Below are positions 1-15,446 of a stretch of 25,634 nt of DNA, piece after piece. The notes beneath the pieces are model-generated. The model searched no databases. It saw only the letters and a program-made list of their open reading frames with translations, and was not told the DNA's origin. The stretch comes from a virus: the IMG/VR virus record IMGVR_UViG_3300024255_000139, positions 1 through 25,634 of that record; one strand, given 5' to 3'. Each line of letters opens with the position of its first letter. Within the stretch, counting starts at the first letter, position 1. The position numbers and the translations under genes were made by a program.

Positions 1-1289
1 AAGATACGGGTAGGTTTGCATTGGTTGGTACTGATATGTTAGTACGTGCGGGTGAAATCGCGGGTGCGTATGGTATGAAGATGTCCGAAGTTGTCGGTGC
101 ATATGACGACTTTGAAAAAGTAGGTATAGGTGCAGCACAAGCACAAGAGTCTATTGCAGATGCGGGTAAACGATCTTTAGAGGTTGGAATACAATCAAGA
201 CAAACCATTCAAGGAATGGTAGAGAATGTTGGAAAACTGAATGAATATGGTTTCCAACAAGGGGTTGAAGGTCTCGAGAAAATGGTTAGAAGATCAACCG
301 AAATTAGAATGAGTTTAAGTGAAACATTTAAAGTGGCGGATAAAGTATTTTCACCTGAAGGGGCGTTAGAACTATCTGCGGAATTAGGTGTTTTAGGTGC
401 TGCGTTTGGAGACTTTAACGATCCATTAAGACTTATGTATATGGCAACCAATGAGGTTGAAGGATTACAAGGGGCGTTAGAAGGTGTTGCGGGTAACTTA
501 GCAACCTACAATATGGAAACAGGTGGGTTTGAAGTTACAGGTGCCAACCTTAGACAGGCAAGAGAAATTGCGGGTAAACTAGGTATAGACATGTCTGAAC
601 TTACCCAATCAGCAATTGCACTACAAGAACGTCAACAGGCGGCGTTAGCGTTAGAGGGTTTAAATATTAAACCTGAAAACAAGGAATTCTTAACCAACCT
701 CGCGAGAATGAAAGACGGAGAAATGTCAATTGATTTACAAGCGGCAGGGTTAGAGGAAGAATTTGGGGCGAAAACTATGAAACTAAGTGACATGAATAAA
801 GATGTTGCGGAAAAAATACTTGCATTTCAAGACGAATTTAAAGATAAATCAGAAAAAGATCTCATAAGAGAACAAGTAACTTTAGTTGAAAACATAAGTA
901 GGGATGTTAATTACCTTGCGATGTTAGCAAGATTAGAAGTTGCGGGTGTGGGAGACCAAGCGGTACAAGCATTAACACAAATGACTGCAAAAGGTAAGGG
1001 AGTCGATATAAGTAAAATGTTAGCGACAGAATTTGATGGGTTAGTAGAAATGTTTGGTGAACAAAAAGCGGCAATTATAAAGGCGGCACAAGAAAAAATG
1101 GGTATAGATCCATCCGAATTTAAAAATAATAAAAATACCTCTTCAGAATCAAGTACTGAAAAAGGTAAGACAGACACTCTTAAAGTAGAAGTTAGTGCTA
1201 AAGACGCAATTGCCGGATTCTATCAAAAGGAATGGTCGTTAAATCCTGAGAGATGGGTTCAAGGTAAAGGTTATTTAAACCCTAATTAA
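1..1289 (+). CDS. Tail tape-measure-like protein, C-terminal part (5' end outside window)
   Basis: The reading frame is open from the first full codon at position 3, with no stop and no convincing start before it. The gene therefore begins upstream of the window, and the TTG at 21 is just an internal codon. About 429 residues are visible. They are almost entirely predicted helix, rich in Ala, Gly and Glu, with no cysteine and no enzymatic motif. Segments such as LGVLGAAFGDFNDPLRLMYM and ANLRQAREIAGKLGIDMSEL look like the helical repeats of phage tape-measure proteins, which set tail length and are threaded through the tail tube. The last ~70 residues become polar and Ser/Thr/Lys-rich (NNKNTSSESSTEKGKT) before a short ending in NPN. 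In T4 the tape measure (gp29) directly precedes the tube-initiator genes, and the same order is seen here. Tape measure is the best call; another helical tail protein remains possible. Confidence 0.6.
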   Translation, partial: DTGRFALVGTDMLVRAGEIAGAYGMKMSEVVGAYDDFEKVGIGAAQAQESIADAGKRSLEVGIQSRQTIQGMVENVGKLNEYGFQQGVEGLEKMVRRSTEIRMSLSETFKVADKVFSPEGALELSAELGVLGAAFGDFNDPLRLMYMATNEVEGLQGALEGVAGNLATYNMETGGFEVTGANLRQAREIAGKLGIDMSELTQSAIALQERQQAALALEGLNIKPENKEFLTNLARMKDGEMSIDLQAAGLEEEFGAKTMKLSDMNKDVAEKILAFQDEFKDKSEKDLIREQVTLVENISRDVNYLAMLARLEVAGVGDQAVQALTQMTAKGKGVDISKMLATEFDGLVEMFGEQKAAIIKAAQEKMGIDPSEFKNNKNTSSESSTEKGKTDTLKVEVSAKDAIAGFYQKEWSLNPERWVQGKGYLNPN

Positions 1290-12365: not shown

Positions 12366-13052
12366 ATGAATTTAGAAAAACAACTACAAGAAGAGTTAAT
12401 GAGATACCGTAGTATCAATCAATACGGTAAGAAATTAATACAAGAACAAGAAGAACCTGTTGGTGATGCACCTTTAGAAGATATTCCTGCGGAAGAACCT
12501 GCTGGTGATGCACCTGTAGACGATCTTCCTGTAGATGATCTTCCTGTAGACGATCTTCCTGATGGTGATGCACCTTTAGAAGATATTCCTGCTGAAGAAC
12601 CTGCCGATGGTGGTATGGAAGCAGATGTTGAAGAAGTTGATATTACAGATCTTGTTAATATGACACAAAACATCAAAAACGACTTAGATTCATCTAAGTC
12701 TGATAACGATCAGGTAATGGGTAAAATGGGGGATCTATTCTCTAAATTAGATGATTTAGAAAGTAAATTATCTAAAATGGATAATCTAATAACTAAAATA
12801 GATGGTTTAGAATCTAAGGTTGAGAACATGAAAGAACCTACACCAGTGGAAAGACTTGAAATGAGATCGTTAGATTCATATCCATTTAGTCAAATTCCTT
12901 CAGAGTTTTTTTCACAGAAACAACTTGATATGAAAGCGAGTGGTAAAAATGAATACGTTATAACTAAACAAGATGTGGCGGATTACAATCCAGGTGAAAT
13001 GAGAGATTCATTTAATCAAGAAAAACCGGACGAAAATGAGGTTGAGTGGTAA
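12366..13052 (+). CDS. Acidic Pro-rich repeat and coiled-coil protein (228 aa)
   Basis: The family is not recognised, but the architecture is clear. Residues 1-29 are a charged helix (QLQEELMRYRS, GKKLIQEQEE). Residues 31-80 are a very acidic, proline-spaced repeat region (GDAPLEDIPAEEPA twice, VDDLP three times). Residues ~95-156 are a heptad-like coiled coil with Leu/Met/Ile spacing (DLFSKLDDLESKLSKMDNLI). A polar C-terminal domain ends VEW. It has no cysteine and no membrane segment. The N-terminal helix carries L-x-E sites (LQE at 7-9, IQE at 25-27) of the kind cut by T4-type prohead protease in encapsidated proteins, so a capsid-targeted internal or scaffold-like protein is possible; this is speculation. 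It overlaps the next gene by 17 nt. Confidence 0.6.
   Translation: MNLEKQLQEELMRYRSINQYGKKLIQEQEEPVGDAPLEDIPAEEPAGDAPVDDLPVDDLPVDDLPDGDAPLEDIPAEEPADGGMEADVEEVDITDLVNMTQNIKNDLDSSKSDNDQVMGKMGDLFSKLDDLESKLSKMDNLITKIDGLESKVENMKEPTPVERLEMRSLDSYPFSQIPSEFFSQKQLDMKASGKNEYVITKQDVADYNPGEMRDSFNQEKPDENEVEW
12462..12604 (+). repeat. In-frame tandem repeats in the acidic protein gene
   Basis: Two 41-bp copies (12462-12502 and 12564-12604) differ at a single position and bracket a partial copy starting at 12504. Between them are three tandem 15-bp units (12516-12530, 12531-12545, 12546-12560; GTAGAYGATCTTCCT) with one base difference. All units are multiples of three and keep the frame, which fits recent slippage or unequal recombination that lengthens the acidic linker. 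Confidence 0.85.
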
Positions 13053-13401
13053 TGTAAAATTCTTTCTTGAAGTTCAATCACAACTTAAGGTACTACATTG
13101 GCAAACTAAAAGTCACGCAAAACATGTATCGTTTGGGGAAACCTATAATGTATTAGATGGTTTAATTGATAATTTTGTTGAAATTGCAATGGGTATCTAT
13201 GGTAGATTTAAGTTAGAAGAGGAAGAAACACACATATCCATTCAAAACCTTTCTGATGTTGATGTACTTGGAATGATTAAAACCGTAAGGGGTAGTCTAC
13301 AACAAATGGAGATAAACCCAAAAGACACAGACTTACTAAATATCAAAGACGAAATGTTAGCTCAGATTAACAAACTATCTTATTTACTGACACTTAAGTA
13401 A
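13036..13401 (+). CDS. Small Dps/ferritin-like helical protein (121 aa)
   Basis: Residues ~10-57 (QLKVLHWQTKSHAKHVSFGE, TYNVLDGLIDNFVEIAMGIY) follow the signature of Dps proteins: a helix with Leu-His-Trp, later histidines, then D-x3-E, here Asp45 and Glu49, as in the Dps ferroxidase pair. The second half (~70-121) is helical but much shorter than in bacterial Dps (about 150-170 aa in total), so a complete four-helix bundle is doubtful. Related small proteins of unknown function occur in T4-like phages. Iron binding or DNA protection is possible but unproven, as the set of metal ligands looks incomplete. The ATG at 13036 lies 17 nt inside the previous gene, implying translational coupling. 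A terminator follows closely. Confidence 0.55.
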   Translation: MRLSGNVKFFLEVQSQLKVLHWQTKSHAKHVSFGETYNVLDGLIDNFVEIAMGIYGRFKLEEEETHISIQNLSDVDVLGMIKTVRGSLQQMEINPKDTDLLNIKDEMLAQINKLSYLLTLK

Positions 13402-13427
13402 AAAATACTACATATTTAAAATTAATA

Positions 13428-13459
13428 AAGTTCAAGGGGTTGACTCTTGGACTTTTTTT
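13428..13459 (+). terminator. Intrinsic terminator ending the first structural block
   Basis: AAGTTCAAG (13428-13436) pairs with CTTGGACTT (13446-13454) over 9 bp with one G-U pair and a 9-nt loop, followed by a run of seven T (13453-13459). It lies 27 bases after the Dps-like gene and separates the structural genes from the replication genes. Confidence 0.8.
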
Positions 13460-13503: not shown

Positions 13504-14349
13504 ATGAGTTCAATCGACGCAATTCTTTCTCAATATGAGAAAAACACGCAACCTGCCGCAGGCGGCAACAGAATTTCCAGTGAGGAAAGACTTAAAAAGT
13601 ACTTCACTACAATTCTTCCTAAAGGAACACAATCAGGACAAAAGAGAATTAGAATTCTCCCAACAACTGACGGTACAAGTCCGTTCCAAGAAATCGCATT
13701 CCATGAAGTACAAGTAGATGGGAAATGGTTAAAACTTTATGATCCATCACAAGATGGTGATGTATCTCCGTTAAACGAGGTAAGAGAAAGTTTATTATCA
13801 ACAGGAAGTGAGGATGACAAAATCTTGGCAAGAAATTATAGAGCAAAAAAATTCTATATAGTCAAAGTTATCGATAGAGATAACGAACAAGATGGTCCAA
13901 AATTTTGGAGATTCAAACACAACTACAAAGGTGATGGTAATTTAGATAAAATTATACCTATCATTAGAAGTAAAGGTGATATTACAGATGTTGTTGAAGG
14001 TAGAGATTTAATACTATCGTTAGCCGTAACTAAGGCAAACAATGGTAGAGAATACACTACTATCAACTCAATTATTCAAGAAGATAAGTCAGGTTTACAT
14101 AGTGATCCTGAAGTGTCAAACGCATGGACAAACGATCCACAAACTTGGAGAGATGTCTATTCGGTAAAACCTCTTGAATACTTACAATTAGTTGCATCAG
14201 GTGAAAACCCTGTTTGGGACAAAGACGCTAAGAAGTTTATTTCTTCTATGGGTGGTGAGGAAACATTTGGTGGGTCATCAATGACACCTAAGGTTGAAGT
14301 AGAAGATGCACAATCAACAACAAAAGTAGACGACAACCTACCATTTTAA
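13504..14349 (+). CDS. gp32-like single-stranded DNA-binding protein
   Basis: This 281-aa protein is the counterpart of T4 gp32, which coats single-stranded DNA and organises the recombination and replication machinery. The OB-fold region (~30-205) includes RIRILPTTDGTSPFQEIAFH and PKFWRFKHNYKGDGNLDKII, a segment characteristic of this family. The C-terminal third is acidic and flexible. The protein has no cysteine at all, so the zinc site of T4 gp32 (three Cys and one His) is absent. The chain ends DDNLPF, almost identical to the protein-docking tip of bacterial SSB (DDDIPF). The ATG at 13504, after an A-rich leader (TTAAAATTTAAAATT), is chosen over a TTG at 13447 that would lie inside the terminator and add a hydrophobic 19-residue extension. 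UvsX and helicase genes follow. Confidence 0.85.
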   Translation: MSSIDAILSQYEKNTQPAAGGNRISSEERLKKYFTTILPKGTQSGQKRIRILPTTDGTSPFQEIAFHEVQVDGKWLKLYDPSQDGDVSPLNEVRESLLSTGSEDDKILARNYRAKKFYIVKVIDRDNEQDGPKFWRFKHNYKGDGNLDKIIPIIRSKGDITDVVEGRDLILSLAVTKANNGREYTTINSIIQEDKSGLHSDPEVSNAWTNDPQTWRDVYSVKPLEYLQLVASGENPVWDKDAKKFISSMGGEETFGGSSMTPKVEVEDAQSTTKVDDNLPF

Positions 14350-14356
14350 TTAACAC

Positions 14357-14435
14357 GGACCCACCCAAAACAATTATTGATGGAAACATCTGGTGGAGCT
14401 ACAGAACCGATTAGTCGGTCCCTACGGGTGGGTCC
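14357..14435 (+). ncRNA. Structured RNA candidate: three-way junction between SSB and uvsX genes
   Basis: The 101-base gap between the two genes is nearly filled by one structure. A perfect 10-bp outer stem (GGACCCACCC 14357-14366 with GGGTGGGTCC 14426-14435) encloses two hairpins. One is GATG-GAAA-CATC (14379-14390) with a GNRA-type GAAA tetraloop; the other is ACCGA-TTAG-TCGGT (14406-14419). The joining strands are 12, 15 and 6 nt. ATTTTAAAAAA follows, so it is a poor intrinsic terminator but could stabilise the SSB mRNA end, attenuate uvsX, or act as a regulatory RNA. CCACC in the 5' arm (14361-14365) can alternatively pair with GGTGG (14392-14396), so two folds are possible. It does not match the core of any ribozyme or riboswitch I can recall, nor a tRNA. 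Confidence 0.6.
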
Positions 14436-14450
14436 ATTTTAAAAAACAAT

Positions 14451-15446
14451 ATGGCAATTAAGAAAAAAGATTTTAAAAGTATTAAATCAAAGTTCTCTAA
14501 ACAGGCTAAGTTTAAGTCTGATAGGTTTTTTGATTTAGGGGACGCATTTTTGGATGCGACGGGATTACCAGGACCATCTATGGGACATATTAATATGTTT
14601 TTAGGACATTCGGATACGGGTAAAACAACGGCACTTGTTAAGACCGCAGTTGATGCACAGAAAAAAGGGGTACTCCCTGTTTTTGTTATTACAGAACAGA
14701 AATGGGATTTCCCACACGCAAAACTAATGGGTCTTGATATTGAAGAAACGGTTGATGAGGAAACGGGAGAAATCGAATATGATGGATTCTTTCTATTCAA
14801 CAACGAATTCCAATATATAGAACAAATTACTGATTACATAAATGAACTAATAGACGCTCAGAAGAAAGGTGAATTGGAATATGATTTACTATTCTTGTGG
14901 GATTCGGTTGGTTCGGTACCGTGTAAAATGACGTTTGATGGTAAAGGTGGTAAACAACACAACGCATCGACGTTAGCCGATAAAATCGGAATGGGTTTAA
15001 ATCAGAGAATTTCAGGTTCAAGAAGAGTGGATTCAGAATTTACAAATACACTTGTTATTGTAAATCAACCATGGGTAGAACTACCTGACAATCCATTTAG
15101 TCAACCAAAGATTAAAGCGAAGGGTGGAGAATCAATATGGTTAAACTCTACACTTGTATTTAGATTTGGTAATCAGAAAAATGCGGGTACTAACCCTATC
15201 TCTGCCGTTAAGGACAAGAGAAAGGTAAAATTCGCAACAAGAACAAAGATTTCTATCATGAAGAACCACGTAAATGGTCTTGGTTATGAAGATGGTAGGA
15301 TTATAGTAACCGCACATGGTTTCTTAAGTGGGAAAGATTCTACAGAAGAAAAGAAATCGTTAGAGGGTTACAAACAGGAACACGCAGAATTTTGGAAAGA
15401 CCAATTAGGTATTGAAGGTGACTTCGATATCAAAGAGGAGGTATAG
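14451..15446 (+). CDS. uvsX: UvsX/RecA-like recombinase
   Basis: This 331-aa strand-exchange ATPase corresponds to T4 UvsX, which forms filaments on gp32-cleared single-stranded DNA and drives recombination-dependent replication and repair. Walker A is GHSDTGKT at residues 52-59, and the Walker B-like strand is DLLFLWDSVGSVP in the RecA core. LVIVNQPWVELPDN and a Gly-rich segment (KIKAKGGESIWLNS) fit the DNA-binding loop region. The length is close to T4 UvsX (391 aa) minus C-terminal sequence, and the end is short and acidic (GDFDIKEEV). Start ATG 14451 follows TTTTAAAAAACAAT, with no Shine-Dalgarno site. The gene lies 16 bases after the structured RNA and 26 bases before the nuclease gene. 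The family call is secure. Confidence 0.9.
   Translation: MAIKKKDFKSIKSKFSKQAKFKSDRFFDLGDAFLDATGLPGPSMGHINMFLGHSDTGKTTALVKTAVDAQKKGVLPVFVITEQKWDFPHAKLMGLDIEETVDEETGEIEYDGFFLFNNEFQYIEQITDYINELIDAQKKGELEYDLLFLWDSVGSVPCKMTFDGKGGKQHNASTLADKIGMGLNQRISGSRRVDSEFTNTLVIVNQPWVELPDNPFSQPKIKAKGGESIWLNSTLVFRFGNQKNAGTNPISAVKDKRKVKFATRTKISIMKNHVNGLGYEDGRIIVTAHGFLSGKDSTEEKKSLEGYKQEHAEFWKDQLGIEGDFDIKEEV

Follow-up and report, generated by a model that had tools for sequence, protein, structure and literature searches.

A folded RNA between ssb and uvsX of a T4-like phage carries, in the loop of a terminator-like stem, an apparent single-unit relative of wcaG RNA

A three-stem RNA element lies between ssb and uvsX

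The window, that is, the whole 25.6-kb stretch of DNA analyzed here, is a virus record of the IMG/VR type. Between two DNA-repair genes of this T4-like bacterial virus, ssb and a uvsX-like recombinase gene, lies an element built from an outer stem (P1) and two inner hairpins (P2 and P3) (Table 1). By sequence inspection, the arms of P1 form ten perfect base pairs; a 10-bp stem with at least 7 G/C and a gap of 20-80 occurs once in the window and in 0 of 300 first-order Markov resamplings. The minimum free energy of the element is -31.8 kcal/mol (z -3.3). All three stems that a first-pass annotation had drawn are present where it placed them, and compensatory changes across all three bear out its claim of a structured RNA. 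The element is a genuine folded RNA. An Rfam search of the window element gave zero family matches, in agreement with the annotation's remark that no known ribozyme or riboswitch core could be recognized; the Rfam ribozyme models matched neither the element nor its relatives, and the T-box model (RF00230) did not match the element.

Table 1. Features of the ssb-uvsX region in the window
Feature	Position	Strand	Remarks
Terminator-like hairpin AAAGTTCAAGGGGTTGACTCTTGGACTTT and T run	13427-13455	+	Strong; upstream of ssb, 5' boundary of the ssb unit
ssb (single-strand DNA-binding protein)	13504-14349	+	PHROG 224; start taken as ATG 13504; element in its 3' UTR
P1, 5' arm GGACCCACCC	14357-14366	+	Outer stem, read as ssb terminator
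P2 hairpin GATG-GAAA-CATC	14379-14390	+	4 bp, GAAA loop
UGGUGGA heptamer	14391-14397	+	Unchanged across all aligned copies
P3 hairpin (A)CCGA-TTAG-TCGG(T)	14406-14419	+	Closing pair of A14406 with the first YCC base
YCC element (UCC)	14419-14421	+	Directly 3' of P3; first base also pairs with A14406
P1, 3' arm GGGTGGGTCC	14426-14435	+	Pairs with the 5' arm
ATTTT (AUUUU), short U tract	14436-14440	+	Directly after P1
uvsX-like recombinase, downstream gene	14451-15446	+	PHROG 97

The first-pass annotation had also proposed two competing folds, in which CCACC (14361-14365) pairs either within P1 or with GGTGG (14392-14396). Although these two stretches are complementary, the equilibrium probability of their pairing was 0.00, both in the window and in each of 11 distinct relatives, compared to 1.00 for P1, and CCACC is missing upstream of the copies found outside the ssb-uvsX family. 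Since the probability was 0.00 in every variant, a two-state model finds no equilibrium support in these predictions, and the competing fold was rejected; a transient alternative fold formed during transcription is conceivable.

The gene upstream of ssb (13036-13401) matches PHROG 858, which is named starvation-inducible transcriptional regulator. An upstream 228-aa gene contains tandem-like repeats of Pro-[Ala/Val]-Gly-Asp-rich units in a 15-nt register (12456-12644) and had no family match.

P1 is best read as the terminator of ssb

Relatives of the locus were gathered by UvsX similarity, giving 80 loci. In the 14 closest of these (L001-L014, at least 91% identity) the structure is kept at the same ssb-uvsX spot. 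A plain single hairpin, with a loop of a few nucleotides, without the inner domain and in many cases with a visible T run, fills the gap in 45 other relatives in which it is readable, and the gap is almost absent in 3 further relatives. Two loci labelled 'module' by the script do not belong there: L048 has only TGGTGGAG inside coding sequence, and L053 is a plain hairpin. Thus, the plain ssb-uvsX terminator of related phages resembles the window element in position, stem and short T run, but differs from it in its short loop and in the absence of the inner domain. Loss of the structure with the gene order kept, the outcome that the first-pass annotation had named as counting against its candidate, is what the 45 relatives display.

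All 12 distinct variants form the nine outer pairs of P1, in several cases through double changes (GGACCC.../...GGGTCC, GGGTCCCC.../...GGGGACCC and GAACCTAT.../...GTAGGTTC). Furthermore, the G/C-rich 10-bp stem is followed by a U tract, AUUUU in the window and CUUUU or longer among the relatives (CTTTT to CTTTTTT in the DNA), so that the earlier statement that the element lacks a T tract was too strong. This resembles the anatomy of an intrinsic terminator, although a simple terminator scan missed the element because the loop is long. Given the plain hairpin in the same gap of 45 relatives and the U tract, P1 most plausibly represents the terminator of ssb, with a domain carried in its loop; this reading takes termination from position and anatomy. 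Together with the hairpin that precedes ssb, the 45 plain hairpins also point to a transcription-unit boundary rather than to an odd gap in a tightly packed operon, as the locus had first been described.

The loop of P1 holds a module that recurs in other phages

Within the loop lies a module of the form [UU(U)-hairpin P2]-UGGUGGA-n-[hairpin P3]-YCC, which is separate from P1. The feature that defines membership, UGGUGGA between two covarying hairpins followed by YCC, is present in the window, as are P1, P2 and P3. A first retrieval pattern derived from the ssb-uvsX family (GGTGGAG-n-CCGAC-n-GTCGG[CT]CC) returned, besides ssb-uvsX loci and GC-rich chance matches, two large sets of AT-rich phage loci. 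Both sets share traits that the pattern did not demand: GGUGGAG is preceded by a U and, immediately 5', by a hairpin, which itself usually follows UUU; a stop codon falls at or close to this hairpin, and YCC is followed by a terminator. A second pattern led to a fourth set of loci with quite different P3 sequences. At two sites other than ssb-uvsX where loci were retrieved by protein similarity, all 44 readable loci retained UGGUGGA, with the hairpins varying; since GGTGGA was part of the patterns that found most copies, the invariance of the heptamer is unbiased only in these protein-retrieved loci.

The secondary structure of the module is borne out by covariation. In alignment A4, for which model R1 aligned 57 sequences, pairing held in 98.6% of cells, 8 of 10 pairs showed two-sided changes, and the covariation score was 0.438; shuffles gave 0.207 and slid partners no more than 0.125. 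Alignment A5, which leaves out the ssb-uvsX family and takes in named phages, had 98.2% of cells paired, two-sided changes in 9 of 10 pairs and a score of 0.479 against at most 0.156. A4 and A5 were fitted to the structure, so that their cell counts lean its way, but the MAFFT alignment A3 agrees with them (95.5% paired, score 0.354 against at most 0.136) and left the picture unchanged. A pattern scan of bacterial genome contigs gave solely GC-rich chance matches among 80 loci scored, and the module was absent from two Bacteroidota MAGs. No description of the module was found in the literature searched.

How the window copy itself fits this class was assessed with model R3, which was built without any ssb-uvsX sequence. 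R3 scored the window copy at 12 bits (E 0.2-0.9), which is not significant and was not the best match in the window, while its orthologues at the same site scored 16-24 bits (E 1.4e-4 to 0.016). The window copy would thus take its place in the class through orthology with L200, L007 and L009, and not by its own sequence alone. The low score of the window copy, together with a terminator-like P1 where relatives have plain hairpins, is what would be expected if the element were only an elaborate terminator, with P1 ending ssb and the loop content incidental and not homologous to the module elsewhere. We regard this as distinctly improbable. In the ssb-uvsX family the loop retains UGGUGGAG, P3 and YCC while the sequence of P1 changes (P2 is lost in L011/L158); R3 finds the orthologues at exactly this site; and the pattern-found loci share P2, the preceding U and UUU, the stop codon and the terminator, none of which the pattern contained.

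Two further resemblances of the core were rejected. A T-box antiterminator likewise has a UGG(U) stretch beside a hairpin and, like the module, could pair with a tRNA 3' end (UGGUGGA/UCCACCA); however, the module has no RF00230 match, no stem I and no conserved antiterminator helix, its downstream genes are unrelated, and a T-box-like helix between the 3' arm of P2 and YCC fails to form in L237 and throughout the ssb-uvsX family. A twister-like arrangement of GUGGAG and GGUCC had no Rfam match, and its UAA part is absent from many copies.

The module is kept at about one copy per genome while its carrier changes

With models R1 and R2, each of 34 IMG/VR records, genomes of 115-322 kb included, yielded a single strong copy, as did each of 11 named phage records: LR745206.1 (a 635-kb uncultured phage), S-CAM7, S-ShM2, S-B43, S-RIM50, S-BM1, S-P4, S-SZBM1, S-SM1, S-SCSM2R and Vibrio phage nt-1. 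Many of the records are fragments, so the count of one per genome should be taken as a minimum. Upstream of the module lie at least 10 unrelated gene families and downstream of it at least 8, the latter including uvsX, structural proteins, peptidase, hli, endonuclease V and baseplate genes. Most copies begin within the interval from 20 nt before to 49 nt after the end of a stop codon on the same strand, and in several copies the stop codon lies inside P2 (..VEFS*, ..FPCLEK*). The module is thus mostly found at a stop codon, ahead of a terminator.

Among four large phages searched, G010 (326 kb), immuto, T4 and KVP40, a credible copy was missing; the single weak match in G010 lies within coding sequence. 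Their lack of the module argues that it is not essential to large T4-like phages. A second match in nt-1 and the only match in KVP40 were discarded as antisense to tRNA genes or tRNA-like sequence. These antisense tRNA 3' halves (UGGUGGAGA-n-ACCGA..UCGG; W08 93292-93352 in nt-1 and W14 174837-174880 in KVP40) score 20-23 bits; they resemble the 3' half of the module, UGGUGGA being the complement of a tRNA 3' end, and are a source of false positives.

Two copies lie away from protein-coding carriers. In L315 (IMGVR_UViG_3300005831_000060) the module is found inside a phage tmRNA gene, with mRNA absent on both sides. This gene, at 1062-1345 and on, encodes the tag EDNVRVMSFATALAA, and its T loop contains a group I intron (RF00028, 1350-1629); the gene was recognized by its 5' end, its tag (..ALAA*) and its 3' end, while ARAGORN gave no call, and no tmRNA relatives lacking the insert were found. 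In L274 (IMGVR_UViG_3300042889_000900, about 85-390, minus strand) the module is flanked by a tRNA 5' half on one side and a tRNA-Leu-like gene on the other, and a terminator after the module is absent. The tRNA 5' half has no evident 3' half, and the tRNA-Leu-like gene also looks interrupted.

This distribution bears on a role specific to ssb or uvsX. The order of stop codon, module, terminator and next gene would suit a cis-acting riboswitch or attenuator, in which the module would be the aptamer and P1 or the following terminator the expression platform governing read-through into the downstream gene, here uvsX. Moreover, the unpaired core is strongly conserved, and the same kind of reading has been proposed for wcaG RNA as a riboswitch candidate (PMC2864571). 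Nevertheless, we consider such a switch unlikely: the downstream genes are unrelated, the tmRNA copy and the tRNA-region copy lack a downstream platform, the alternative fold has a probability of 0.00, and pairing of GGUGGAG with the terminator arm fails in several copies. This anti-terminator, possible by eye in L100/L198 but not in L156, L179, L275, L276 and L279, was rejected. The occurrence of the same domain beside unrelated genes in other phages likewise leaves the ssb/uvsX-specific regulator or two-state attenuator of the first-pass annotation unsupported.

Low copy number and changing neighbors also recall catalytic RNAs. Small ribozymes known from phages occur about once per genome with changing neighbors, and in size and in its helices around invariant unpaired nucleotides the module could pass for a new small self-cleaving ribozyme around a UGGUGGA/YCC core. 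Against this, Rfam ribozyme matches were zero, a conserved cleavage-site pattern outside the core is absent, and P2 is lost in L011/L158, and we hold a ribozyme to be very unlikely. As a stability element, the compact fold would block 3'-to-5' or 5'-to-3' exonucleases and protect the carrier mRNA, that of ssb here, as a decorated terminator. Its position at 3' ends directly before terminators and the tandem units in cyanophage 3' UTRs fit such a role, as does its compactness; yet a general protector would be expected many times per genome rather than about once, and the carriers differ in function, so that this too is decidedly unlikely.

The module is an apparent one-unit relative of wcaG RNA

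wcaG RNA (RF01761), known from marine metagenomes and T4-like cyanophages, was proposed to be a candidate riboswitch of exopolysaccharide and high-light genes (Weinberg et al., 2010; PMC2864571). In the literature searched, five papers name wcaG alongside riboswitches. In S-CAM7, an Rfam wcaG RNA (77 bits) follows the module in the same 3' UTR. A scan of 220 kb of this genome for UUU-hairpin-UGGYG units returned five, compared to 0-4 in total in resampled genomes, and three of the five lie within about 155 nt, as the module and both halves of wcaG. The tandem order of module and wcaG is repeated in S-B43, S-RIM50 and S-SZBM1. Furthermore, in S-BM1, a relative and not the window phage, a wcaG match at 94805-94904 (51.3 bits, cut-off 42) encloses the module at 94810-94859. 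These tandems and the enclosing match suggest that the module is related to wcaG RNA and consists of a single one of its units.

The two are built from the same UUU-hairpin-UGGYG units and stand in tandem in cyanophage 3' UTRs, but they are not identical. wcaG has two units, with UGGUGCGGAUG/UGGCGNG cores. In the window there is a single unit containing UGGUGGAG; its P2 is 4 bp long and capped by a GAAA loop, and P1 is taken as the terminator. Two or three units were found only in cyanophages. RF01761 gave no match in the region of the element, even with E allowed to reach 10, nor in the whole record, and it matched neither G002 nor LR745206.1. By the Rfam model, then, the window element itself falls outside wcaG.

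wcaG has been a functionally unexplained orphan riboswitch candidate since 2010. The analysis that set out from the ssb-uvsX gap revealed the wcaG-type unit in a widespread form that stands by itself in large T4-like phages. A unit that stands alone at about single copy, mostly in 3' UTRs, in a terminator loop and even in tmRNA invites re-examination of the gene-linked, 5'-UTR view of wcaG. A minimal module construct of about 55 nt and the isolated carriers S-CAM7, S-SM1, S-RIM50 and nt-1 allow functional tests.

A proposed carrier-independent role

Retention of about one copy per genome while the carrier changes makes a self-contained RNA domain the most likely nature of the module. In our preferred reading, to which we give about an even chance, the ssb-uvsX element would have two superimposed parts: P1 and the short U tract, which would act as the intrinsic terminator of the ssb transcript, and the loop, which would hold an RNA domain independent of ssb and uvsX. 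The module would be transcribed as the 3' end of its carrier transcript, that of ssb here and those of unrelated genes or tmRNA elsewhere, and would most likely persist as a stable, self-contained 3'-end noncoding RNA or RNA tag. UGGUGGA would be exposed between two helices and offered to a conserved phage or host partner, and the role would be exerted through the heptamer whatever the carrier. The module is probably not a switch that controls ssb or uvsX.

One candidate partner is suggested by the heptamer itself. UCCACCA is the 3' end of tRNA-Ala and tmRNA, and UGGUGGA is complementary to it. The module could dock to these ends through UGGUGGA-UCCACCA pairing and, independently of its carrier, sense or block tRNA-Ala or tmRNA; we treat the complementarity as a lead, not as evidence, and rate docking a long shot. 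If it were true, a near-universal target would explain the unchanging seed across phages of very different hosts, and wcaG would be the tandem form. An sRNA seed acting on phage mRNAs is unlikely, since TCCACCA is not enriched in the 318-kb carrier genome G002 (84 observed, 81.6 expected).

GOLLD RNA (RF02032), like the module a noncoding RNA of large phages, was found in 7 of 26 carrier or related records tested; unlike the module it exceeds 400 nt, and its sequence is unrelated. It occurs in L088, L100, L156, L170 and L198 and in G001, G002, G008, G009 and G036-G038, large phages related to that of the window. GOLLD lies 1-2 kb upstream of the module in some large phages and far away in others, and a linkage was rejected because the two are physically near in one lineage only. 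Many different proteins encoded just after the module in L202-L318 have a similar motif at their N terminus (..ILTEKQLEKL.., ..FILTEEESKRIL..), which is possibly a common targeting or processing signal.
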